This document shows positions 24,212-37,636 of a stretch of 39,178 bases of DNA, piece after piece. The first letter of the stretch is position 1, and each line of letters begins with the position of its first letter. The position numbers and the translations under genes were made by a program. The stretch is from assembly GCA_016788215.1 (NCBI GenBank), contig JAEUSJ010000004.1:20410-59587 (forward strand), in the 5' to 3' direction. The notes below the pieces were generated by a model. That model saw only the letters and a list, made by a program, of their open reading frames with translations. It ran no database searches and was not told where the DNA came from. This DNA comes from a bacterium. GTDB taxonomy: Bacteria > CLD3 > SB21.

Positions 24212-24297
24212 TATTTTCTTCGCTTGCCAATAAGCAATGCAATCCGTAATTTGCAATCCAGATAGCCGTGACTTCCAATAATTTCATTGTTCTAACC

Positions 24298-27200
24298 ATG
24301 TTCGATTCGTACCTCCAATCGCTTTTCGAAATTACCAAACGCGGCGATGCGCGCGAGGAATCGTATTATTCCACGCTGGAAGACCTGATCCATTCATTGG
24401 CGAAACATTTCGATAAAGCCAAAGTTCAAGTCACCACGCTGCCGAAGAAAACCGAGGCCGGTAATCCCGACTTTCGCGTCTGGGACGGCGCGCTTTCCCA
24501 GATCGGTTATATCGAAGCCAAAACGCCTCAAACGGATCTTCGCGAGATCGAAGAATCGGAACAACTCGAGCGTTATCTCGATACCTTTCCCAATGTGATC
24601 CTGACCAATTTTTACGAATTCCGCCTGTACCGCAAGGGCCAGAAAATCGAGACCGTTCTTCTGGCGCGCCCCATGATCGCGTCCAAACTGAAATCCGTTC
24701 CGCCGGCGGAAAGGCCGGATGAATTGTTGAAACTTTTCGAACGGTTTTTTGAGTTTTCACTTCCCACGACGTTTACGGCCGAAAGTCTTGCGCGTGAACT
24801 CGCCATACGTACGCGTTTTCTGCGCGATCAGGTGATCAAAGAAGAACTTCGCGAAGCGACCACCGGCCATAATCGCATTCTTGGATTTTACGAAGCGTTC
24901 AGTAAACATCTCATCGCGCATCTGAAGCCGGACGAATTTGCCGATCTCTATGCGCAAACCGTGACCTACGGCCTGTTTGCGGCGCGTACACGTTCCGATA
25001 ACGGGTTCAATCGTAAAGTCGCCTACGATCTGATTCCTAAAACCATCGGCATTCTGCGCGATATTTTTCATTTTATTTCTTATGATCCGCCGCGCCAGCT
25101 TGAGGTCATCGTCGACGACATTGCGGAAATTCTCGCCGCCGCCGACGTGCGCAAAATTCTGCACGACTATTCCGGCAAAGGCAAAGGCTCCGATCCGATA
25201 TTTCATTTTTACGAAACGTTTCTTGCCGAGTATAACCCCGTCGAGCGCGAACGCCGCGGCGTGTATTATACGCCGGAACCCGTCGTCTCGTACATCGTCC
25301 GCTCAGTGCATAAAATTCTCAAAGACGAATTCGGCCACGCGGACGGGCTAGCTTCTTCTGCCGTCACGGTGCTCGATCCCGCGGGCGGCACGCTGACCTT
25401 TCTTGCGGAAGCCGCCAAACTGGCCGTCGAGGAGTTTACCGGAAAATTCGGCGATGCCGCCAAAGGCCGCTTTATCGAAGATCACGTGCTCAAACATTTT
25501 TACGCATTCGAACTCATGATGGCGCCGTACGCGGCGGGCCATCTCAAAATGGGCTACCTGCTCGAGGAACTTGGGCACAAACTCAAGGGCGATGAACGTT
25601 TTCAGTTTTATCTCACCAATACGCTCGAGATGGAGGAACTCGCCCAGACTTCCCTGCCCGGAATGGCTTCGCTTTCCGAAGAGTCGCATCTTGCCGGCAA
25701 AGTCAAAAAAGATCAGCCGATTCTCGTCATCATAGGCAATCCGCCGTATTCCGGTATTTCTGCGAATGCGAGTGAAAAAATTGTTCGTGTGGAAAAAGGT
25801 GATAATTACATTTTGAATTATGACATTAAAACTGTCGTTGAAAATGGCAGAACATTTTATAGACTGCTCCCGAAATTCAAGAAAGCAACGAAGAATATCC
25901 AAATAAAACAGAAAACATGGATCGGCGAATTGATCGAGCACTTCAAGATCATCGACGGCGATTGGTTTGGGGAACGAAAGCACTGGCTGCAGGACGACTA
26001 CGTCAAATTCATCCGCTTCGCGCAATGGAAGATCGATCAATGCGGACAGGGTGTCGTCGGACTGATCACCAATCACAGCTATCTTGACAATCCTACTTTT
26101 CGAGGTATGCGTCAGTCGCTGATGAATTCATTCGATGAAATCTACGTCCTCGATCTGCATGGCAATTCGCTGAAAAAGGAAAAATCTCCTGACGGCTCCA
26201 AAGACGTCAATGTTTTCGATATTCAGCAAGGAGTCGCTATTTTGATAATGATTAAGAAAGATCACCGAAAGTCGGAAAATAAAATTTATCATTACGAGCT
26301 TTGGGGCGAGCGTGACGACAAATACAATTTTCTTGCGAAGAAAGATCGTGACAAAACAGAATGGAATTTGCTAAAACCCAATTCCCCCTTTTACTTTTTT
26401 GTGCCGAAAGAAGAAAAACATCGAAACAGATACGACCGGTATCTGCCGGTCTCTGAAATATTTCCAGTCAACGTCACTGGAATCGTTACCGCTCGGGATG
26501 GTTTTGTCATTGACATGGATGAAAGAACTCTTGAACACAGAATAAAGCAATTTCGTGACTTAGACATACACGATAAAATTATTGAGACAACGTACGGATT
26601 GAAAGATACTCGGGGCTGGAAAATGTCTAAGGCAAGAAAAATTCTTGCCAAAGATGAAGAATGGAAACAGCATTTCACAACAATTCTGTATAGACCATTT
26701 GATTTAAGGAATATCTATTACACACCAACTATGGTTGATTGGGGTAGATTTGAACTCATGAAGCACATGATGCAGTACAATCTTGCTTTAATTACACCTA
26801 AACAGTTCAAAGAAGAGTCTGGGGCTTATGTATCACGAGCGATTATTGGACATAAAACCGTTAGCGCTTATGACATAAATTATCTGTTTCCTCTATATTT
26901 GTATGATGACCCGAAAGAAATCGGCGGAGTCTCAGGCGGCACGCGCGGGACGAAGTACCAGATGAGCATGGTATTGGAGCCGGAGCCGAAATATAAAACC
27001 AAAGGCAAGACGACAAATATTTCCGATGCCGTATGGGATGCCGTTACTGACGTTCATGGTAAATTCGCCACGCCGGAAAATATTTTTTATTACATTTATG
27101 CCGTTCTTTATTCTCCGAAGTACCGCAAGAAGTACGCGGAGTTTTTGAAAACCGATTTTCCCCGTGTGCCGTTTACCGCCGATAAGAATACATTCAAGGA

Positions 27201-27579
27201 ATTGGCTGAATTCGGCGAAGCCTTGACCAATCTGCATCTCCTGAAACTTAAGAAACTGAACTCTCCCATCGCCAAATGCGAAGGCAAGGGCGATTTTAAA
27301 GTTGAAAAAATCCGCTACGAAGCGAAAGAAAAACGCGTTTATATCAATGCCGATCAGTATTTTTCCGGCGTCGCGCCCGAAGTCTGGGAGTATCATATCG
27401 GCGGTTACCAGGTTCCGGAAAAATGGCTGAAAGACCGTAAAGGCCGCGCGCTCAGTTCCGACGACATCCGCCACTATTGCCTCGTGATCACCGTTCTGGA
27501 AAAAACCATCGACATCCAATCCGAACTCGACCCGCTTTTTGACGCGGTGGAGAAGGATATTCTCCAGATCCAATGGTGA
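24298..27579 (+). CDS. Single-chain type IIG/ISP-like restriction-modification enzyme (N6-adenine methylase plus nuclease)
   Basis: Predicted to methylate adenine in its own DNA and cleave unmodified foreign DNA. Numbering from ATG 24298. An N-terminal PD-(D/E)xK nuclease-like stretch is present (Asp58 in GNPDFR, Glu73 and Lys75 in YIEAKTP). A helical linker and an N6-adenine methylase follow, with motif I DPAGGTLTF at about 360 and motif IV NPPY at about 481-484. The C-terminal third is likely the target-recognition part. No helicase motifs are seen, unlike full LlaGI-type ISP enzymes. An in-frame GTG at 24268 is an alternative start. Base composition is mosaic: parts of 25770-25920 and 26260-26910 are clearly AT-richer than the rest. 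A transposase starts 13 bases downstream. Confidence 0.88.
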   Translation: MFDSYLQSLFEITKRGDAREESYYSTLEDLIHSLAKHFDKAKVQVTTLPKKTEAGNPDFRVWDGALSQIGYIEAKTPQTDLREIEESEQLERYLDTFPNVILTNFYEFRLYRKGQKIETVLLARPMIASKLKSVPPAERPDELLKLFERFFEFSLPTTFTAESLARELAIRTRFLRDQVIKEELREATTGHNRILGFYEAFSKHLIAHLKPDEFADLYAQTVTYGLFAARTRSDNGFNRKVAYDLIPKTIGILRDIFHFISYDPPRQLEVIVDDIAEILAAADVRKILHDYSGKGKGSDPIFHFYETFLAEYNPVERERRGVYYTPEPVVSYIVRSVHKILKDEFGHADGLASSAVTVLDPAGGTLTFLAEAAKLAVEEFTGKFGDAAKGRFIEDHVLKHFYAFELMMAPYAAGHLKMGYLLEELGHKLKGDERFQFYLTNTLEMEELAQTSLPGMASLSEESHLAGKVKKDQPILVIIGNPPYSGISANASEKIVRVEKGDNYILNYDIKTVVENGRTFYRLLPKFKKATKNIQIKQKTWIGELIEHFKIIDGDWFGERKHWLQDDYVKFIRFAQWKIDQCGQGVVGLITNHSYLDNPTFRGMRQSLMNSFDEIYVLDLHGNSLKKEKSPDGSKDVNVFDIQQGVAILIMIKKDHRKSENKIYHYELWGERDDKYNFLAKKDRDKTEWNLLKPNSPFYFFVPKEEKHRNRYDRYLPVSEIFPVNVTGIVTARDGFVIDMDERTLEHRIKQFRDLDIHDKIIETTYGLKDTRGWKMSKARKILAKDEEWKQHFTTILYRPFDLRNIYYTPTMVDWGRFELMKHMMQYNLALITPKQFKEESGAYVSRAIIGHKTVSAYDINYLFPLYLYDDPKEIGGVSGGTRGTKYQMSMVLEPEPKYKTKGKTTNISDAVWDAVTDVHGKFATPENIFYYIYAVLYSPKYRKKYAEFLKTDFPRVPFTADKNTFKELAEFGEALTNLHLLKLKKLNSPIAKCEGKGDFKVEKIRYEAKEKRVYINADQYFSGVAPEVWEYHIGGYQVPEKWLKDRKGRALSSDDIRHYCLVITVLEKTIDIQSELDPLFDAVEKDILQIQW

Positions 27580-27592
27580 TTGGATTGATCGA

Positions 27593-28312
27593 ATGATCCG
27601 AAACAGAAAATCCATCCGTCTGCCCGGTTACGATTATGCAAAGCCCGGCGCCTATTTCATGACGGTATGCGTGAAAGATCATGCGCATTTATTCGGTTCC
27701 ATCGAAAAAACCGTCATGCGGGAAAACGAATTTGGGAAAATCGTGCGGAAATGTTGGAATGATTTGCCCCGTCATTACCCGTCGGTGAAATTGGACGCAT
27801 TCGTCATCATGCCGAATCATATTCATGGAATTATTATCATCGTGGATGATGATCATGGCGTCGTAGGGGCAGGTTTGAATGTGGACGTCGTAGGGGCAGG
27901 TTTGAATGTGGACGTAGGGGCAGGTTTGAATGTGGACGTAGGGGCAGGTTTGAATGTGGACATAGGGGCAGGTTTGAATGTGGACATAGGGGCAGGTTTG
28001 AATGTGGACGTAGGGGCAGGTTTGAAACCTGCCCCTACGTCGAAAACCAAAAACAACACACCAAAACGTCACGGTTTGTCCGAAATCATCCGTGCGTTGA
28101 AAACGTTTTCCGCCCGCCGTATCAATGAAATCCGAAAATCGCCCGGCATTTCCGTTTGGCAACGAAATTTTTATGAACATATTATCCGGAACGAATCTGC
28201 GTTAAATCAAATCCGCAAATATATCGAAGCCAATCCTGCGAATTGGCAATTGAACAATGAGAATTCCATTTCCGATGAACTCGCCCACGTCAAAACTTTG
28301 TCAGCCGTTTAG
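27593..28312 (+). CDS. REP-associated (IS200-like, Y1) transposase with repeat insertion
   Basis: HUH-type single-strand transposase of the RAYT group, which handles REP palindromes. From ATG 27593 it has 239 residues. The HUH motif is MPNHIHGI (His76, His78), and the catalytic tyrosine is probably Tyr194 in NFYEHIIRNE. Between them, residues about 91-149 are a low-complexity insert of GAGLNVDV units ending GAGLKPAPT, encoded by tandem copies of a REP half-palindrome (see 27863-28038). The insert falls in the linker between the catalytic core and the tyrosine helix and keeps the frame open, so the protein may still be active. The reading frame continues upstream to 27539, but that overlaps the restriction gene. 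Confidence 0.85.
   Translation: MIRNRKSIRLPGYDYAKPGAYFMTVCVKDHAHLFGSIEKTVMRENEFGKIVRKCWNDLPRHYPSVKLDAFVIMPNHIHGIIIIVDDDHGVVGAGLNVDVVGAGLNVDVGAGLNVDVGAGLNVDIGAGLNVDIGAGLNVDVGAGLKPAPTSKTKNNTPKRHGLSEIIRALKTFSARRINEIRKSPGISVWQRNFYEHIIRNESALNQIRKYIEANPANWQLNNENSISDELAHVKTLSAV
27863..28038 (+). repeat. Tandem 24-base repeats derived from a REP palindrome, inside the transposase gene
   Basis: Six units starting GTAGGGGCAGG (or ATAGGGGCAGG) and ending GAATGTGGAC begin at 27863, 27890, 27914, 27938, 27962 and 27986. An extra GTC follows the first. The seventh, at 28010-28038, is a complete palindrome with arms GTAGGGGCAGGTTT and AAACCTGCCCCTAC around one base. All units are multiples of three bases. 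The full palindrome has the form of a dispersed REP element. Confidence 0.93.
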
Positions 28313-28742
28313 AAGTGATACATGCGAGCAGCGGCCCGGCGTTTGAATGTGATATTCTGAACTTTCCCACAAATAATCCCTTGCACAATTCCGCTAAATG
28401 CAGTATATACCTACATATCCAACAAAAAAATTGAGGCTCCCGTCTATAATTATCCAGGGTTTACTCTCTTTTCAAAAAAAAACCTTTTTGAACGTAATTC
28501 CGACCTAATTAAGTTGATCGAAAAAAACTAAAATACGATCAACCCCATTATACATAAATTAGTAAACCATTCTAATTATCCATCTGCAAACCGGCTTCTT
28601 AAGAGCGGTTAAGGAGAAGTGTCTCTCATTGTTATTCGAATCGTGACAATGATTGGATAAACGATAATTTGGCCAGCCTTGGCGGGAAAGGCCGGAAAAG
28701 ACCGCCTTTCCGTCGACACAAAGAAATAAAAAGAAGGTAAGA
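28313..28742. promoter_or_regulatory. 430-base leader of the kinase array with two inverted repeats
   Basis: No gene was recognised. GTTGATCG (28513-28520) and CGATCAAC (28536-28543) form an 8-base inverted repeat around an A-rich centre, a possible operator or transcript hairpin. GGAAAGGC (28685-28692) and GCCTTTCC (28704-28711) form a hairpin about 30 bases before the first kinase start, without a following T run. AAGAAGG before ATG 28743 is the likely ribosome-binding site. No convincing promoter boxes could be assigned. Confidence 0.4.
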
Positions 28743-31406
28743 ATGATCGGAACTATAATTTCCAATTACAAAATCATTGAGAAACTCGGCGAAGGCGGTA
28801 TGGGTATCGTGTATAAAGCGCACGATACTAAACTTGACCGCGAGGTTGCATTGAAATTTCTCCCCCACTACGTCGCATCCAGCGAGACGGAACGGGCGCG
28901 TTTTCTTCAGGAAGCCAAAGCCGCGGCCACGCTGAATCATCCGAATGTGTGCGTGATCTACGATATTCAGGAAGCCGACGATCAGCAATTTATCGTAATG
29001 GAATATGTGGACGGCATGACCGTGAAACAAAAATTTTCCGAATCGCCATTGAAAATCAGCGATGCGATAAGCTATGCTATTCAAATCGGCGAAGCTTTAC
29101 AGGAAGCGCATGCGAAAGGCATCGTTCACCGCGACGTGAAATCCGAGAACATCATGGTTAATACAAAGAACCAGATCAAGGTGATGGATTTCGGGCTAGC
29201 CAAATTACGCGGCTCGGTCAAACTTACCAAATCGTCCAGTACGACGGGAACACTCGCCTACATGGCGCCGGAACAAATTCAGGGACAGGAGATCGACGCG
29301 CGCGCGGATATTTTTTCGTTTGGCGTCGTTCTGTACGAAATGCTGACAGGCAATACGCCGTTTCGCGGCGAACATGAAGCTGCCATGATGTATTCTATCC
29401 TGAATGAAGAACCGCAGCCGATACAAAAATTCCGCGAAGATATTTCCTCCGAACTGCTTCACGTCCTGCATCGCGCGCTCGAGAAAGATCCCGAAGAAAG
29501 ATATCAGACCGTCAAGGATATGACGATCGATCTGCGACGAATGAAAAAGGAGTCGACGAGAGTGGTGCGTACTCAGGACTTCGGTTCATCTGAAAAAAGC
29601 GGGTCAAAAATAAATTCAAAGCCGATGGAACCTGCATTACCGATGTGGTTTTCAAAAAAATATATTACCGGCGCCGGTATTCTTCTTCTTATCGCATTAG
29701 CTTTCGTTTTCAGGGAATATTTTTTTTCAGGTTCGACGGCCAAGAACGAAAAGAAGACCATGGTCGTGCTTCCGTTTGAAAACCTGGGGCCGAATGACAA
29801 AGACTATTTCGTTGACGGCATGACCGATGAGATCACAAGCCGGTTATCCGGTGTGTCCGGGCTCGGGGTTATCGCCAGAACGAGCGCCATGCAATATAAA
29901 GGCACGTCAAAAACGTTCAAACAAATCGGCGAAGAGTTGGGTGTCAATTACATTTTGCAGGGAACGGTTCGCTGGGAGACGCTGAACGGCGAAACGCATG
30001 TTCGTGTAAACCCCACGGTCATTAAAGTTGAAGACGGGACGCAGGCTTGGTCGCAGTCGATGGAGTCTGTTCTCTCGAGCGCTTTCAAATTACAATCCGA
30101 TATCGCCAGTAAGGTTGCGTCGGCCCTGAACGTTGCATTATTAAAATCCGAGAAACAGACACTCGAAACGGCCTTGACACATAATTCAGAAGCTTATGAC
30201 TATTATCTTAAAGCCGTCCAGTATTCCGAACGAAGTAATTCCTTAAATGATATGGAAATCGGTATTCAGCTCTTGAACCGCGCCATTCAGCTTGATCCCT
30301 CCTTCGCGGCGGCCTATGCTAAACTTTCTTATGTACATTCAAACATTTACTGGTTCTATTACGACCGATCGGAAAGCCGCGTTGAGGAATCCAGGATAGC
30401 CGCAGAAAGAGCCATTCAGCTCGCCCCGCAACTTTCAGAAACCCGCGCAGCTATGGCATGGTATTATTACCACGGGAAACTCGACTATGAGAACGCGCTG
30501 GAACAGTTCTCACTTGCCTTGAAGTACCGCCCTAATAATCCGGATGTAGACTACGGTGTTGCGGCCGTTCTCCGCCGTCAGGGAAAAATGAAAGAGTCCG
30601 TTGAAGCCTTCAAACGATCTATCGCCGGCAACCCGCGCGTAGCGGAGATCGTTCGTCAGTTAGGTGAAACGTTGACGCTGACACGTGATTACGAGGAAGC
30701 GGATACCTATTACAGCAAGGCGATTCTTCTTTCTCCGGATAATATCGACGTCTATTATGAAAAAGCCAAGAGCCTGCTTTTGTGGAAATCTGATTTGGCC
30801 GGCGCGCGAAACATCGTTGAAGACGGAAAACATTTGGGAAAAGTTGGAGGAGAAACGGATTACCTTAATTACCTGAAGTTTCTTATCGAATTATCGCAAG
30901 GCAACTTCAATGACGCAGAAGACGCGTTGAAACCGATGTCGTCATCCGGGGGTCTCAGCGATCAATTTCAGTTTTATCCGACATCCTTACTTCGCGCGCA
31001 GTTGGAAACTTTGCGCGGTAATAAACAAATCGCGGCGGTATGGTTTGACAGCGCCAGGATCTTCATTGAACAGCACCTGAAAACTAATCCGTACGATGAG
31101 CGCGGCTTCAGTTCGCTCGGTATAGCGCTTGCCGGATTGAGTCAAAAGGAAAACGCTATCCGTGCCGGCCTGCGAGGAGTTGAATTACTCCCGATAGAAA
31201 AGGAAGCCTGGCGAGGGGCTTTCCGCATTTACGATCTTGCCAAAATCTATGCGCTGACGGGTGAGCAGGATAAAGCCGTGGACGAACTTGAGCGGCTACT
31301 GTCCATTCCGTCTGAAACATCCACCATTTGGCTAAAAGCAGACCCGGCCTTTGTCTCGCTTCGCGGGAATAAAAGGTTTCAGAAATTAGTCAATGGTGAT
31401 CTTTGA
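28743..31406 (+). CDS. Hanks-type Ser/Thr kinase with TolB-N/FlgO-like and TPR sensor region
   Basis: Membrane receptor kinase of 887 residues. The kinase domain (about 9-270) has a glycine loop GEGGMG (16-21), catalytic Lys38, HRD with Asp131, DFG from 149 and APE near 175-177, so it should be active. After a linker comes one membrane span (about 309-327). Outside lies a domain starting TMVVLPFENLGPNDKDYFVDG (about 339-470), like the TolB-N/FlgO-related module found with adenylate cyclases and kinases. TPR repeats then run to the C-terminus (about 490-880; LNRAIQLDPSFAAAYAKLSY, ALKYRPNNPDVDYGVA). First member of a kinase array on the same strand; substrates are unknown. Confidence 0.93.
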   Translation: MIGTIISNYKIIEKLGEGGMGIVYKAHDTKLDREVALKFLPHYVASSETERARFLQEAKAAATLNHPNVCVIYDIQEADDQQFIVMEYVDGMTVKQKFSESPLKISDAISYAIQIGEALQEAHAKGIVHRDVKSENIMVNTKNQIKVMDFGLAKLRGSVKLTKSSSTTGTLAYMAPEQIQGQEIDARADIFSFGVVLYEMLTGNTPFRGEHEAAMMYSILNEEPQPIQKFREDISSELLHVLHRALEKDPEERYQTVKDMTIDLRRMKKESTRVVRTQDFGSSEKSGSKINSKPMEPALPMWFSKKYITGAGILLLIALAFVFREYFFSGSTAKNEKKTMVVLPFENLGPNDKDYFVDGMTDEITSRLSGVSGLGVIARTSAMQYKGTSKTFKQIGEELGVNYILQGTVRWETLNGETHVRVNPTVIKVEDGTQAWSQSMESVLSSAFKLQSDIASKVASALNVALLKSEKQTLETALTHNSEAYDYYLKAVQYSERSNSLNDMEIGIQLLNRAIQLDPSFAAAYAKLSYVHSNIYWFYYDRSESRVEESRIAAERAIQLAPQLSETRAAMAWYYYHGKLDYENALEQFSLALKYRPNNPDVDYGVAAVLRRQGKMKESVEAFKRSIAGNPRVAEIVRQLGETLTLTRDYEEADTYYSKAILLSPDNIDVYYEKAKSLLLWKSDLAGARNIVEDGKHLGKVGGETDYLNYLKFLIELSQGNFNDAEDALKPMSSSGGLSDQFQFYPTSLLRAQLETLRGNKQIAAVWFDSARIFIEQHLKTNPYDERGFSSLGIALAGLSQKENAIRAGLRGVELLPIEKEAWRGAFRIYDLAKIYALTGEQDKAVDELERLLSIPSETSTIWLKADPAFVSLRGNKRFQKLVNGDL

Positions 31407-31421
31407 AAGTTATCCAAATTA

Positions 31422-31448
31422 AGGTAGCCGCAAGCTTTAGCTTGCGAG
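31422..31448 (+). repeat. REP element, left of transposase
   Basis: AGGTAGC followed by a hairpin with arms CGCAAGCT and AGCTTGCG around TT. It is the inverted counterpart of the element at 31951-31977 and lies 17 bases before the transposase start. Confidence 0.75.
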
Positions 31449-31464
31449 CAGGTACAATCGCAAA

Positions 31465-31950
31465 ATGACACAAATCAAAGAAAAAAAACACAGACTCCCG
31501 AGTGATTTTTATGCGGGATTTGCAACGGTTGCAGTCACGGCGTGTATAGAGGACAGATTTCCGGTTTTCGTCAATTCTAATGTTGTAATTCAATTCTCTG
31601 ACACGCTTATTTCCGAAGCAACGGATAACAATTGTGACGCGCTTATTTATCTTTTCATGCCCGATCATCTTCATGTGATTTTGAAAGGAAAAACTGAAAA
31701 TGCTCAACCTCTAAAAGCCATGAATAAATTCAAGCAAAAAACTGGATATTGGTTTTCACAAAACGCAAAACAAATTCAATGGCAGAAGAGTTATTACGAT
31801 CACTTAATCAGAAATGAAGAAGGTGTTATGACGCAAGTCAGATACATTCTTGACAACCCGGTTCGAAAAGGTATTGTTGCCGATTGGTCAGATTATCCGT
31901 TTAAAGGATCAACTGTTTTCAATTTCAATAAGGAATTGATTGATAATTAG
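31465..31950 (+). CDS. REP-associated tyrosine transposase (Y1/IS200-like)
   Basis: Compact 161-residue HUH transposase. HUH motif MPDHLHVIL (His68, His70), catalytic tyrosine probably Tyr111 in SYYDHLIRNEEG, and a C-terminal helix MTQVRYILDNPVRKGIV typical of RAYTs. It is diverged from the transposase at 27593, so the two belong to different subfamilies. It is flanked by inverted REP elements (31422-31448 and 31951-31977), the standard layout of a RAYT with its cognate repeats. It lies between two kinase genes on the same strand, without interrupting either. It appears intact. Confidence 0.88.
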   Translation: MTQIKEKKHRLPSDFYAGFATVAVTACIEDRFPVFVNSNVVIQFSDTLISEATDNNCDALIYLFMPDHLHVILKGKTENAQPLKAMNKFKQKTGYWFSQNAKQIQWQKSYYDHLIRNEEGVMTQVRYILDNPVRKGIVADWSDYPFKGSTVFNFNKELIDN

Positions 31951-31977
31951 TCCGCAGGCTAAAGCCTGCGCCTACCT
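31951..31977 (-). repeat. REP element, right of transposase
   Basis: Hairpin arms CGCAGGCT and AGCCTGCG around AA, followed by GCCTACCT. Its reverse complement starts AGGTAGG and matches the left element in layout, with GGC/GCC in place of AGC/GCT in the arms. It abuts the transposase stop codon. Confidence 0.75.
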
Positions 31978-31994
31978 AAAGAATTAGGTTCAAC

Positions 31995-34961
31995 ATGATC
32001 GGACAAACCATCTCACATTATAAGATCATAGAAAAACTCGGCGAAGGCGGGATGGGTATCGTGTATAAAGCGCATGACACACAACTGGATCGCTTTGTTG
32101 CGCTGAAATTTCTCCCGCATTATCTCAATTCCGATCCTGTTGAAAAAGAACGGTTCTATCACGAAGCCCGCGCTACCTCCGCCCTCAATCACCCGAACAT
32201 TACGACGATTTACGAAATCGCGGAACATGACGGGCAATTGTACATTGCATTGGAATTCGTTGAGGGATCGACGCTGAAACAACTGGTCAAACATGAAATT
32301 CCATCAAACAAAACCATTCTGGACATTGCGATCCAAGCCTGCGACGGCATATCGACCGCCCATGAAAAAAGCATCGTACACCGCGATATCAAATCCGACA
32401 ACATCATGGTCACGCCCAAAGGCCAGGTCAAGGTCATGGATTTCGGTTTAGCAAAAGTGAAGGGCGCGGTAAAATTAACCAATGCCGGTTCCACGGTCGG
32501 CACGGCGGCGTATATGTCTCCTGAACAGGCGCTCGCCGTAGACGTGGACAACCGCTCCGATATTTTTTCTTTCGGCGTCGTACTGTATGAACTGCTCACG
32601 GCCCACCTACCCTTTCGCGGGGAGCATCAGGCCGCAATAACTTATTCGCTGATTCATGAAGCACCGCAGCCTTTAGCGCGTTTTAATCAATCTGTTTCAC
32701 CGGAGATGGAGCGTATCGTTTTGAAAGCGCTTGAAAAAGATAAGACGGAGCGTTATCAGCATATTGAAGACATGCAGGCCGATCTTCGTAAAGAAATGAA
32801 GAACATGGAATATGCACGAACAGGATACGTCAAAGCGGTTGCCGCCTTGCCGGTTGTGAATGCCGATAAGAATCGGAAAGTGCTGAAATATGCGATCCCC
32901 GCCGTCGTTGCGGTCATTATCATCGCGGCTCTTGTTTTTAATCCCTTCAGCGTACAGATCAATACGCAGAAAACCCAAGCCTCAGAAAAGAACTCACTGG
33001 CGGTCATGTACTTTCAAAACATTGCGGACCCTGAAGATAAAAATCATACCGGCGATATGCTGGCCGATCTTTTGATTACTTCCCTTTCTCAGACCAAAGA
33101 TCTCGAGGTTGTCAGCCGTGAACGATTATACGATATTCAAAAAGAATTCAAAGCCGACTCAAGGATCATTGCCCCGGACATGGCAACCAAAGTGGCACAA
33201 CGCGCCGGCGTAACCACGATGCTTCTCGGATCCATTCTGCAGCACGAGCCCACTCTCGCTGTGACCGCACGAATTATTGATGTTCAAAGCGGAAAGATCC
33301 TCAGCTCCGTTCGCGTGATCGGATACTCGTCGAAACAAATTTTTGCGCTGGTCGATACGCTTGCGCTGCTCATAAGAAACGACCTCCGCATCGCCGATGC
33401 ATCGCCCGATGAAAAAAAATCGGTAACAACGGTGACCACCAATTCCATAGAGGCCTACAGGTCGTACATCGAGGGCGTTGATCTCAATGGGAAATTTCTT
33501 AATGAAGAAGCGTATGTTGCCTTTAAAAAGGCGATAGAACTCGACACCAATTTTGCAATGGCGTATTATGCGCTGGCAACTGCCAGAGGAAATGTAAGCA
33601 GCATGGAACGCAGCGCGTCTTTGCAAAAAGCATACGCTCTCAGCGGCAGACTCCCGGAACGCGAACGTCTGATCATTCAGAACACCTATGTGAGTGATAT
33701 TGAAAATAACCCTGCAAAAGCGGCGGTTTTGATGGAGGAATATATTCAGAAATTCCCGCATGAGAAAGGCGCCTATCTTGAACTTGGAACATATTATGGA
33801 CGCACCGGAGAATTGGAAAAAATGGGATTAACCTACCTTAAGGGAATTCAGGTCGACTCCCTCGATAAGAATTTGTGGAATATTCTTGGTTATCACCAGG
33901 CCGGCGTAAATAACAAAAGCAAAGCTTTGGCCGCGATGGAACGCTATATGAGATTGGCGCCAGCGGAGCCCAATCCCTATGACAGCAAAGGCGATATTTA
34001 TTTTATTTTGGGAGAAACAGACTCGGCGCTGGTTTGGTGGAAAACAGCTCTAAAATTCCGCACGGATTTTATGAGCAGCTGGAAAATCGGTTCACAATAT
34101 CTTTTGCGCGATGATTATGCCCATGCAGAAAAATATCTGCTTCAATATGCCTCGGCGCGAGGAGAAGATCACAAATTATATGTTGACGCCGTTCCACCGC
34201 AAATTGCCATGCGTCAGGGAAAAATGAATTTAGCTATTCGACAAATTCTCGAGTTGCTGCCCAGGCACGCTAAGCAAAAACCCCCCGATCTGATATTTTA
34301 TGATTATGCAGACCTGATCTCCCTTTACGATGAAATAGGAGACTTTGACGCCGCAGAAAAGTATGCTCGAATGAATGCATTGGAGTTACAGAAGGACCCG
34401 GCGTATCCTGTAGCCGGCGCAGATCTATTAGCGTACGTCTTTCACAGAAACGGCAAACAAAATTTGTCTGCAGAACTGATGCACGGCCTTCGAAACAACT
34501 ACGATAGGATGGCGCCTGAAGATAAGGCAAATGTCGATTATACGGACGGCGTACTTGCTTTTGAAAAAGGAGATTATGATGCGGCCCTGAAACATTTTCA
34601 AAATGCAACGGCACGCGCCTTTCCGAATCATGCCCCCCAATATCACATGGCTTTGAGTCTTTTAAAGTCCGGACGAACGGGGGATGCTATAAAGGAGTTT
34701 CATCTTCTTACAAGGCGTTCCCCAATGGGCAATATGTTTTTTGACCTCGATTATCTTCCTTTTTGGAATTACGGAAGTGTCTTTTCCGTAAAGGCGCATT
34801 ACTGGCTTGGCGTAGCCTACGAAAAGCAAGGCGAAAAACAAAAAGCCGTTGCCAAGTACGAAACATTTCTACGGATATGGAAAGATGCGGATTTCAAATC
34901 GAATGAAATAGATGATGCAAAGTTAAGGTTAGCAAAACTTAAAGGAGTTACGGCCCCATGA
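31995..34961 (+). CDS. Hanks-type Ser/Thr kinase with CsgG/TolB-like and TPR sensor region
   Basis: 988-residue membrane kinase. The first 45 residues are almost the same as those of the upstream kinase. Kinase landmarks: GEGGMG (16-21), Lys38, HRD with Asp131, DFG near 149 and SPEQ in place of APE. A single membrane span lies at about 295-315. The extracytoplasmic part begins with a CsgG/TolB-like fold (about 330-475; SLAVMYFQNIADPEDKNHTG, DLEVVSRERLYDIQ, MLLGSILQ, ARIIDVQSGKIL) that differs from that of the first kinase. TPR repeats fill about 485-985. Its stop overlaps the next kinase start by four bases (ATGA), so the two kinases are made from one transcript with coupled translation. Confidence 0.93.
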   Translation: MIGQTISHYKIIEKLGEGGMGIVYKAHDTQLDRFVALKFLPHYLNSDPVEKERFYHEARATSALNHPNITTIYEIAEHDGQLYIALEFVEGSTLKQLVKHEIPSNKTILDIAIQACDGISTAHEKSIVHRDIKSDNIMVTPKGQVKVMDFGLAKVKGAVKLTNAGSTVGTAAYMSPEQALAVDVDNRSDIFSFGVVLYELLTAHLPFRGEHQAAITYSLIHEAPQPLARFNQSVSPEMERIVLKALEKDKTERYQHIEDMQADLRKEMKNMEYARTGYVKAVAALPVVNADKNRKVLKYAIPAVVAVIIIAALVFNPFSVQINTQKTQASEKNSLAVMYFQNIADPEDKNHTGDMLADLLITSLSQTKDLEVVSRERLYDIQKEFKADSRIIAPDMATKVAQRAGVTTMLLGSILQHEPTLAVTARIIDVQSGKILSSVRVIGYSSKQIFALVDTLALLIRNDLRIADASPDEKKSVTTVTTNSIEAYRSYIEGVDLNGKFLNEEAYVAFKKAIELDTNFAMAYYALATARGNVSSMERSASLQKAYALSGRLPERERLIIQNTYVSDIENNPAKAAVLMEEYIQKFPHEKGAYLELGTYYGRTGELEKMGLTYLKGIQVDSLDKNLWNILGYHQAGVNNKSKALAAMERYMRLAPAEPNPYDSKGDIYFILGETDSALVWWKTALKFRTDFMSSWKIGSQYLLRDDYAHAEKYLLQYASARGEDHKLYVDAVPPQIAMRQGKMNLAIRQILELLPRHAKQKPPDLIFYDYADLISLYDEIGDFDAAEKYARMNALELQKDPAYPVAGADLLAYVFHRNGKQNLSAELMHGLRNNYDRMAPEDKANVDYTDGVLAFEKGDYDAALKHFQNATARAFPNHAPQYHMALSLLKSGRTGDAIKEFHLLTRRSPMGNMFFDLDYLPFWNYGSVFSVKAHYWLGVAYEKQGEKQKAVAKYETFLRIWKDADFKSNEIDDAKLRLAKLKGVTAP

Positions 34962-37636
34962 TCGGTAAGACGATTCTTCAATACGAAATCCTCGAACAGC
35001 TTGGTGAAGGCGGCATGGGCGTCGTTTACAAAGCCAAAGACACCAAGCTTGATCGCATGGTCGCGCTGAAATTCCTGCCGGCCAACGTTTCCTCTACGGA
35101 TGCCGACCGCCAGCGATTCATGCAGGAAGCCAAATCCGCCGCAACGCTGAGCCATCCGAATATTTGTACCGTCTACGATGTGCAGGAATTTGACGGACAA
35201 CTTTTTATTGCGATGGAATATATCGAAGGAGAAACGCTTCGTGACAGAAAAAATAATATCTCATTTAAACAATCTATTGATATCGGTATTCAGGTAGCAG
35301 AAGCTCTTGCCGCCGCGCATGAGAAAGGAATTATACACCGTGATATCAAACCGGAAAATGTAATGCTCCGCAAGGACGGACGCGCACAGATCATGGATTT
35401 CGGGCTGGCGAAACAGCAAGGCGCTTCGCGGCTGACCAAACAAGGAAGCACCGTCGGCACGATCGGTTACATGTCGCCGGAACAGGTGCAGGGATTTAAT
35501 GTGGATCACCGCACGGATATTTTTTCCTTTGGCGTATTGTTGTATGAACTTGTATCCGGACAGTCGCCCTTCAAAGGTATGCACGAGACCGCAATCATTT
35601 ATGAGATCGTTAATGTGGACGCGGAACCCGTTTCCATTATCAAACCCGATCTACCGACCGACCTCGACGCGATACTGCTTGAGTGTCTCGCCAAAGATCC
35701 AGACGAACGTTACCAGTCTGCCAAAGAAATCGTCAAAGACCTGCGAAAGTTAAAAAGGGAATCCAGCAAACAAACCGCCAGCCGTGTTCTTGCCGTACGT
35801 CAAAGCCAGATTAATTCCGGCATACGCCCGCAGACGGCCGTATTCGAAACCGTGCATGAGAAAAAACCTTTTTCATTTAATATCTGGATGCTCGTTTCCG
35901 CGCTGTCCATTCTGTCGTTGTTGGTTCTGCTAACAACCTATTTTCTTTTTGTAAAAACGGAACCCGAATTAATGAGATTATCCTTTGAATCTCCTGCAGG
36001 TGAATTTTTTAATTCTTCCGTTGGAGGTCATATGGAAATTTCTCCTGATGGAAAAGCGATCGCATTTGTAGCTTCCGATTCGCTGGGTAGGGATCATTTA
36101 TGGGTTCGTCCGATACACTCATCTATGCCGGTTCTCTTGCAAGGAACAGAAAATGCATATTATCCGTTCTGGTCATGGGATAGTAAAATGATCGCCTATT
36201 TTGCTGAAGGCAAACTCAAAAAAATTGACGCCGGAGGTGGCCCTTCCTTCACTATTTGTGAGGCTGGAAGCGGAAGGGGCGGCGCATGGAACCGAGACGG
36301 TATAATTGTATTTGCGCCAGTCAGCGGCGGACCGCTGCATCAGGTTCCATCGGCCGGAGGAACGTCCAGGCAATTAACTTTTTTGGATTCTACAGAATTT
36401 GAAGTAAATCACCGTTGGCCCTGTTTTTTGCCAGACCAAGATCATTTTTTCTATTCTGTTCAAACCACCAAGGCTTCACTTGCTGAGGACGCGGAACATA
36501 TTCGGATCGGCTCATTAAGTGACGCCCAAAACAAGATCATCATCCGCGCATCAAGCAACACAGCTTACAATCATGGTTGGGTTATGTACTACAAACAAAA
36601 CTCACTGTTGGCTCAACGGTTCAGTGAGGGATCATTGGAATTGAAAGGAGAGCCGATACCGATTCTCGAAAACCTTTTGTACGCTCAGGTTCGAAGCAAA
36701 GCGGCGTTTTCGCTATCGCAAAATAATCGTCTGGTTTTTCTTGGAACTTCAAGTGCCGACAATGAAATGGTCGTATATGGCTCTAACGGCGTCATTCAGC
36801 ATATTATCAAATCTAAAGTTGCAGATATAACCGCAGCATTCTCCTATGATGGAAACTATATAGCTACCGATGCATCCGAAACCGGAGGTAAAAACTCGGA
36901 CCTTTGGATTCATGATATCCAACGTAACAGCGACACACGGTTGACTTTTGACAAAGCGGATGAAATAGTGCCGCAGTGGACCCCCGACGGCAGCAAGATC
37001 TATTTTAGTTCAAACCGAACCGGCGTGTATTCTGTGTATGAAAAGAACAGCAACGGAACCGGAGATGAAAAATTAGTTTACGGGTCATCCGCCCCCGCCT
37101 ACATTACGGATGTCTCCTCCGACGGAAAAAAATTAATGCTCTCGCTCAATACACAAGGCGCTCAAAAATGGGATATCGGCTCATATGACCTTGCTGAAAA
37201 TAAATTCACGTCGCTGCTGACTTCTGAATTCAGTGAATGGATTGGAAAATTTTCACCCGACGGAAAATGGTATGCCTATCAATCCAACGAAACGGGGAAA
37301 TACGAAATATATATTCGGCCGACGGACGGATCGCCCAGCAAATGGCAGGTCTCGACTAATGGGGGCACAGGGCCGACCTGGTTGAGCAGCGGGAAAGAAA
37401 TTATTTTCAGTCTCAATGATCAGCAAATTATTTCAGTTCCGGTCTCTGCTGCCGGTAATCAGATTGTCATCGGCCAGTCTAAACTGCTTCTGAAACTCGA
37501 TACCGGGTTTCAGACGGGCGTGCTGAATATATCCAGGGACGGGAAAAAGATATTGGTTCGTCGCTCGTTAAATATCCAAGCCCTAAAAAGCGCCTCGCTT
37601 ATTTTTAATTGGCAGAATTTAGTGGAGAAAAAATAG
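34958..37636 (+). CDS. Hanks-type Ser/Thr kinase with TolB/PD40 beta-propeller sensor
   Basis: 892-residue membrane kinase, third of the array. Active-site residues are complete: GEGGMG (16-21), Lys38, HRDIKPEN with Asp129, DFG near 147 and SPEQ. A membrane span lies at about 308-330. Outside is a beta-propeller with WD40-like/PD40 strands (about 345-885), seen as repeated forms such as ISPDGKAIAFVA, WTPDGSKIYFSS, FSPDGKWYAYQS and ISRDGKKILV. Propellers of this kind bind proteins or glycans, but the ligand is unknown. Translationally coupled to the preceding kinase through ATGA. A composite repeat lies after the stop. Confidence 0.93.
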   Translation: MIGKTILQYEILEQLGEGGMGVVYKAKDTKLDRMVALKFLPANVSSTDADRQRFMQEAKSAATLSHPNICTVYDVQEFDGQLFIAMEYIEGETLRDRKNNISFKQSIDIGIQVAEALAAAHEKGIIHRDIKPENVMLRKDGRAQIMDFGLAKQQGASRLTKQGSTVGTIGYMSPEQVQGFNVDHRTDIFSFGVLLYELVSGQSPFKGMHETAIIYEIVNVDAEPVSIIKPDLPTDLDAILLECLAKDPDERYQSAKEIVKDLRKLKRESSKQTASRVLAVRQSQINSGIRPQTAVFETVHEKKPFSFNIWMLVSALSILSLLVLLTTYFLFVKTEPELMRLSFESPAGEFFNSSVGGHMEISPDGKAIAFVASDSLGRDHLWVRPIHSSMPVLLQGTENAYYPFWSWDSKMIAYFAEGKLKKIDAGGGPSFTICEAGSGRGGAWNRDGIIVFAPVSGGPLHQVPSAGGTSRQLTFLDSTEFEVNHRWPCFLPDQDHFFYSVQTTKASLAEDAEHIRIGSLSDAQNKIIIRASSNTAYNHGWVMYYKQNSLLAQRFSEGSLELKGEPIPILENLLYAQVRSKAAFSLSQNNRLVFLGTSSADNEMVVYGSNGVIQHIIKSKVADITAAFSYDGNYIATDASETGGKNSDLWIHDIQRNSDTRLTFDKADEIVPQWTPDGSKIYFSSNRTGVYSVYEKNSNGTGDEKLVYGSSAPAYITDVSSDGKKLMLSLNTQGAQKWDIGSYDLAENKFTSLLTSEFSEWIGKFSPDGKWYAYQSNETGKYEIYIRPTDGSPSKWQVSTNGGTGPTWLSSGKEIIFSLNDQQIISVPVSAAGNQIVIGQSKLLLKLDTGFQTGVLNISRDGKKILVRRSLNIQALKSASLIFNWQNLVEKK

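Follow-up and report, generated by a model that had tools for sequence, protein, structure and literature searches.

The window analysed here, a stretch of 39,178 nucleotides of bacterial DNA, carries a RAYT (TnpAREP) gene with an in-frame array of palindrome-derived repeats inside its own coding sequence (Table 1). Directly upstream lies a Type ISP restriction-modification gene (Type_ISP_C, N6_Mtase; 24268-27579, plus strand), of which only the ends seem to be left in one sister species (G002) and which appears to be absent from another (G001), where the RAYT gene adjoins an upstream phosphatase-like gene. Three large Ser/Thr protein kinase genes stand in a row at 28743-37636, the first of them syntenic with the RAYT gene in the sister species. 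A second, different Y1/HUH transposase (31465-31950, plus strand; MPDHLH, WQ, YILDNP; Pfam Y1_Tnp) is located between two of the kinase genes and has a short linker with no palindrome array.

Table 1. Features of the RAYT gene and its repeat array, in window coordinates
Feature	Coordinates	Strand	Basis
RAYT/TnpAREP gene, 239 aa + stop	27593..28312	+	Pfam Y1_Tnp, NCBIfam REP_Tyr_transpos, PDB 4ER8
HUH motif NHIH	27815..27826	+	motif; H76 and H78 invariant in homologue alignment
Linker, residues 84-161, predicted disordered	27842..28075	+	AlphaFold pLDDT
Half-unit 1, 27 nt, extra GTC	27863..27889	+	sequence
Half-unit 2, 24 nt	27890..27913	+	sequence
Half-unit 3, 24 nt	27914..27937	+	sequence
Half-unit 4, 24 nt	27938..27961	+	sequence
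Half-unit 5, 24 nt, ATAG start	27962..27985	+	sequence
Half-unit 6, 24 nt, ATAG start	27986..28009	+	sequence
Complete double-foot REP palindrome GTAGGGGCAGGTTTGAAACCTGCCCCTAC	28010..28038	+	sequence, linker hairpin survey, ssDNA folding
WQ motif, conserved in GTAG-REP-associated subclasses	28157..28162	+	alignment; motif meaning from PMC6006769
Y motif YIEANP with catalytic tyrosine (codon 28220-28222)	28220..28237	+	motif, alignment

The encoded protein is a RAYT by its motifs, its fold and its relatives, and not by the curated cut-off of the family model. It matches Pfam Y1_Tnp above cut-off, which makes it a Y1/HUH transposase. The NCBIfam model REP_Tyr_transpos (NF047646) gave 64.8 bits, under the curated cut-off of 80, and matched in two stretches, likely because the linker splits the match; 52 of 52 homologues match the same model, with E values up to 0.001. 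A phmmer search of the PDB with the single RAYT protein found nothing, and the E. coli TnpAREP structure (PDB 4ER8) was matched by the profile and was also among the top fold matches. The WQ motif is part of WQRN (28157-28168), in which W189 and Q190 are invariant across the homologue alignment. The AlphaFold model, built with 52 aligned homologues, has a confident core (pLDDT mostly >90) in which a strand (residues 76-83) and a helix (162-181) are separated by a stretch predicted to be disordered, with pLDDT of 42-67 in most of residues 84-161. The whole array lies inside this stretch, and its presence is tolerated because the linker is disordered. With a dN/dS of about 0.12-0.14 against the G001 orthologue, the gene is maintained under purifying selection.

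The array comprises six half-palindrome units of 24-27 nt and one complete 29-nt palindrome, all in frame and between the HUH motif and the catalytic tyrosine of the protein. A first-pass annotation of the sequence had described these seven units, and its coordinates of 27863-28038 proved exact; its view that the repeat derives from a REP-type, GTAG-tagged palindrome inside a RAYT gene was also borne out. The complete palindrome reads GTAGGGGCAGGTTT-G-AAACCTGCCCCTAC, with perfect 14-bp arms around one base that grow to 17 bp (28007-28041) when the GAC/GTC ends are counted, and its GTAG...CTAC ends agree with the double-foot REP pattern (GT[AG]G ... C[TC]AC). Each half-unit consists of the left arm and about 10 nt of linker, so that the duplication boundary falls at the palindrome centre, where slippage at a hairpin would be expected to place it. 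The tail GAATGTGGAC is common to all six half-units, and apart from the extra GTC of the first, neighbouring units differ by 0-1 nt. An 11-mer identical to the half-unit junction, GTTTGAATGTG, is found just 3' of the RAYT stop (28341-28351) and is also kept in G002; it may be a chance match or a relic.

Folding of the single-stranded DNA separates the two kinds of unit. The complete palindrome folds at -15.6 kcal/mol (z -8.5), a value as good as which was reached by 0 of 200 shuffles, and the half-units folded alone form no hairpin (z +1.1), which rules them out as separate hairpin substrates. The earlier proposal that the repeat serves as a transposase substrate therefore fails for the half-units and survives, as a conjecture, for the complete palindrome. 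As RNA, the array stretch also folds strongly (z -6.5), and the palindrome, being inside the gene, is always in the transcript. These properties would suit a cis-regulatory hairpin, through binding of the RAYT to its own DNA or mRNA or through an mRNA hairpin that slows translation or protects the transcript. However, the double-foot symmetry and the flanking copies described below suit a DNA substrate at least as well, and we regard such regulation as rather improbable.

Syntenic orthologues of the gene, with a common downstream kinase gene, are present in the two sister species. The G002 orthologue has 92% protein identity to the linker-free query, and the G001 orthologue, in two halves, has 84% and 91%. 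The complete palindrome occupies the same site in G001, G002 and the window, so the suggestion of a recent invasion had to be abandoned. The comparison of unit number that the first-pass annotation proposed gave 0 half-units in G002, where the tail-like GGTGGTGAC is kept, 1 in G001 (GTAGGGGCAGGTTTGGGTGTGGAT) and 6 in the window. The 27-nt palindrome core shows zero four-fold changes; within the genus alone the conservation of the palindrome is only modestly significant (P ~0.01-0.07). The complete palindrome is thus an inherited feature of the genus, and the expansion concerned the half-units alone. G000 pairs most closely with G002 (nucleotide identity 0.946, vs 0.858 and 0.844), and the simplest history is therefore an ancestor with about one half-unit, followed by loss in G002 and expansion in the window lineage.

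The source genome is a draft of 621 contigs, in which short tandem repeats can be mis-sized, and assembly may have only estimated the exact number of units. We nevertheless think it very unlikely that the number is an artefact of assembly, since the units carry distinguishing variants (the GTC insertion and the GTAG or ATAG starts, the latter in two of the six half-units), at about 176 nt the whole array could be spanned, or almost spanned, by reads, and a smaller array built from units of this kind is present in a related species.

Pattern searches for the palindrome and for the tail were used to look for a dispersed source. No second copy of the palindrome was found in the window's genome with up to 3 mismatches allowed, so the window's RAYT has no flanking REPs, and no copy of GAATGTGGAC lies outside the array at 0 or 1 mismatch; the seven matches of the tail at 2 mismatches look like chance. 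A dispersed source for the tail and a dispersed REP family in this genome are both ruled out by these searches. The first-pass annotation had taken the lack of further copies to count against its own reading; what the lack excludes is a currently dispersed family, not the identity of the palindrome as a REP. In all three species, GTAGGGGC..GCCCCTAC palindromes occur only inside RAYT genes, and there is no sign of REP spreading in the genus, the in-gene copies being the only ones of the type. G001 has a second RAYT with its own palindrome.

These observations bear on how the array was made. It is well supported that a block comprising the left arm and some 10 nt of adjoining linker multiplied in tandem from roughly one copy to six, and that the multiplication would have proceeded by slippage or unequal recombination aided by the hairpin, with survival of in-frame products only. 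Of the two routes that the first-pass annotation put forward, tandem slippage that spread a captured REP accounts for both the array and the orthologues that hold 0 and 1 half-units, and the half-units probably arose in this way, by hairpin-assisted slippage or tandem duplication. The other route, in which the seven units would stem from successive REP insertions by the RAYT into its own linker, draws on the fact that the motif is of the RAYT's own type. It is not needed, because the extra units are half-palindromes duplicated together with adjacent linker, and it can be given very little credence: six of the seven units are half-palindromes with an identical non-REP tail, neighbours are nearly identical, the palindrome was already in place in the orthologues with 0 and 1 half-units, and the genome has no other copies.

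Half-REP arrays recur in unrelated RAYTs, and the window exemplifies a process that has happened repeatedly. The right half is repeated four times in 15-nt units in L170 and the left half in 15-nt units in L208 and L250, with the complete palindrome kept in each, and a 27-nt unit is repeated in L248; all of these unit lengths are multiples of three. The linker of L250 (G135:C113) has more than ten left-half 15-nt repeats and two complete hairpin ends, and five copies of the arm at a spacing of about 43 nt lie in its 3' flank. At L195 (G210:C2:2299300-2303100) there are three tandem RAYT genes, two with the in-gene palindrome GTAGGGGCAATTCATGAATTGCCCCTAC and the third with a GGGTTC-type hairpin; GTAGGGGCAATTCATGAATTGCCCCTAC is found again in another RAYT copy, about 160 kb away.

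The complete palindrome is likewise widespread. Among 100 distinct homologues from many lineages, a handful of which were fetched because of a palindrome and introduce a slight bias, 82 contain a perfect hairpin of at least 8 bp in the linker and 40 one of at least 12 bp, compared with 11 and 0 of 500 codon-shuffled linkers. Hairpins of at least 8 bp are found before the HUH motif in 8 of the 100 and after the Tyr-side boundary in 17. A few homologues (L019, L209 and L179) lack a linker hairpin, so not every RAYT depends on one. The palindrome sequences vary (GTAGGGGCAATTC.., GTAGGGGCACGGC.., GTAGGGAACAAAA.. and others), and they are read in phase 0 (n=38) or phase 1 (n=10) and never in phase 2 (n=0), which would read TAG. 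It could be argued that the GAGLNVDV linker units matter as peptide and that this, not the DNA, is why the repeats persist, as the units are in frame in a gene under purifying selection. However, the peptide varies between RAYTs and reading phases while the palindromy of the DNA is kept, the loop is disordered, and the unit number runs from 0 through 1 to 6 among orthologues, all of which makes this explanation scarcely plausible.

The palindrome type follows RAYT phylogeny and matches the REPs that flank the RAYT. With the linker removed, arm distance correlates with RAYT core distance (Mantel r 0.42, 0 of 2000 permutations), and on the core tree, from which a length filter dropped the window's own genus, the palindrome classes need 11 changes vs 28.6 when shuffled. 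The GGTTT class forms one clade (90/93) that includes members from Gemmatimonadota, Bacteroidota and Chloroflexota, and the same arm is kept across phyla at core protein distances above 0.5. The arm of the linker recurs in the RAYT's own flanks in 23 of 63 cases (permuted mean 2, maximum 7), and an intact RAYT gene in G351 has the same palindrome in three places: upstream of the gene, within it and downstream. A truncated RAYT fragment, the C-terminal part only, is also present upstream of that intact gene (L253).

The same association is seen in genome content. Double-foot GTAGGGGC..GCCCCTAC palindromes are present in 29 of 40 genomes with such RAYTs and in 1 of 40 without (Fisher 2e-11), the exception, G011, belonging to the same genus as a RAYT carrier, G298. 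RAYT linkers hold 16 of the 33 such palindromes counted in ten genomes (3/3, 2/2, 2/2 and 1/1 in four of these genomes), and in several genomes the in-gene palindrome is the only copy. Among 20 genomes chosen for GGTTT palindromes dispersed outside RAYTs, a RAYT whose linker holds the complete GGTTT palindrome is present in 7 and one with a half in 1 more, vs about 11 of 386, counted by eye, with a GGTTT linker palindrome RAYT in a general sample (Fisher 4e-7). An HMM survey of GGTTT palindrome loci from a collection scan found 3 of 88 inside RAYT linkers and 82 without a RAYT in the fetched locus, so this type is also dispersed in REP-rich genomes. Dispersed copies are numerous elsewhere (150 in G145, 71 in G056), and the in-gene arrangement is thus found in REP-rich and REP-poor genomes alike.

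Taken together, we consider it probable that the gene is a RAYT of subclass 2.4 that carries its own cognate double-foot GTAG REP in a loop, and that the half-units were added by slippage and tolerated. The loop in question is the disordered one that links the HUH strand to helix alpha-C; it would hold the REP in frame, and there the complete palindrome could act as the hairpin substrate or binding site of its own transposase; its binding, cleavage and mobility are putative. Placement within the gene may keep a REP seed physically tied to that gene, and the half-units would be by-products in a floppy loop. More tentatively, and with somewhat less than even confidence, we suggest that the in-gene REP is a selected part of the gene, in which case enzyme and substrate would be inherited and transferred together and a single copy could persist and re-seed a genome.

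A serious rival is that REPs land near or in their own RAYT gene because the enzyme acts in cis, with the disordered linker as the only place in the gene that can take an in-frame insertion; the embedded REP would then be inert. The predicted disorder fits this, as does the use of two reading phases, which makes more than one acquisition likely, and Quentin et al. favour little impact of the embedded REP on the protein (PMC6006769). On the other hand, the hairpins are perfect in most homologues, the arm follows the RAYT tree over large core distances, and the in-gene copy is the sole copy in several genomes; we regard passive tolerance as somewhat unlikely. It disputes only the functional step and not the anatomy or the history, so our confidence in it overlaps with that in a RAYT carrying its cognate REP. 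If the REP is cognate, the transposase gene also carries the element that its product recognises. The array itself is seen at 0, 1 and 6 half-units across three related species. In-gene REPs of subclass 2.4 had been a published curiosity; the survey derives from them a claim open to testing, namely that the palindrome in the gene is cognate to the enzyme. Were this true, the genes of many uncharacterised RAYTs would themselves reveal the likely substrate, and one could test how REPs remain linked to their transposases.

The gene fits TnpAREP subclass 2.4 (Bertels RAYT group 4). In Quentin et al. (2018; PMC6006769), this subclass is described as having double-foot REPs, in-frame REPs inside tnpAREP between HuH and Y, and short repeats behind its linker heterogeneity. 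The in-gene REP is predominant there, not universal, and flanking REPs accompany a large majority of members, not all, which makes them an association and not a defining feature. The window's gene shares the HUH motif (NHIH, against NH[IFV]H), the WQ motif, the variable insertion between beta3 (the HUH strand) and alpha-C in the AlphaFold model, the double-foot REP, its in-frame position between HuH and Y (also seen in the orthologues) and the short linker repeats. Its Y motif, YIEANP, carries the Y---NP signature of class 2, with A as its fourth residue where the subclass 2.4 motif YIxNNP has N. It also departs from the published description of the subclass in its six-fold left REP half and in an in-gene REP that is the sole copy of its type in the genome.

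The kind of arrangement is therefore already known, and the stutter of half-units is a local example of it. The quantitative coupling of the linker palindrome to enzyme phylogeny, flanks and genome presence is new relative to the available texts of PMC6006769 and PMC3733652, in which we also did not find the one-copy-only-in-gene state or an orthologue series of 0, 1 and 6. Intragenic GTAG REPs in general were described by Di Nocera et al. in 2013 (PMC3733652), and the window resembles them in its GTAG foot, its palindrome, the location within an ORF and the REPtron arrangement. Those intragenic REPs are in many unrelated genes, whereas the REP of the window is in a fixed loop of the family's own transposase. 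Rickettsia palindromic elements, as cited in PMC3733652, are also palindromes in frame in protein genes; these genes are unrelated to the element, in contrast to the window, where the palindrome would be cognate to the enzyme whose gene it interrupts. The E. coli TnpAREP, known from a complex with its REP hairpin (PDB 4ER8), has the same fold and HUH/Tyr core, but belongs to subclass 2.2, is shorter (165 aa) and, according to PMC6006769, is without the beta3-alphaC insertion that holds the array in the window's protein.
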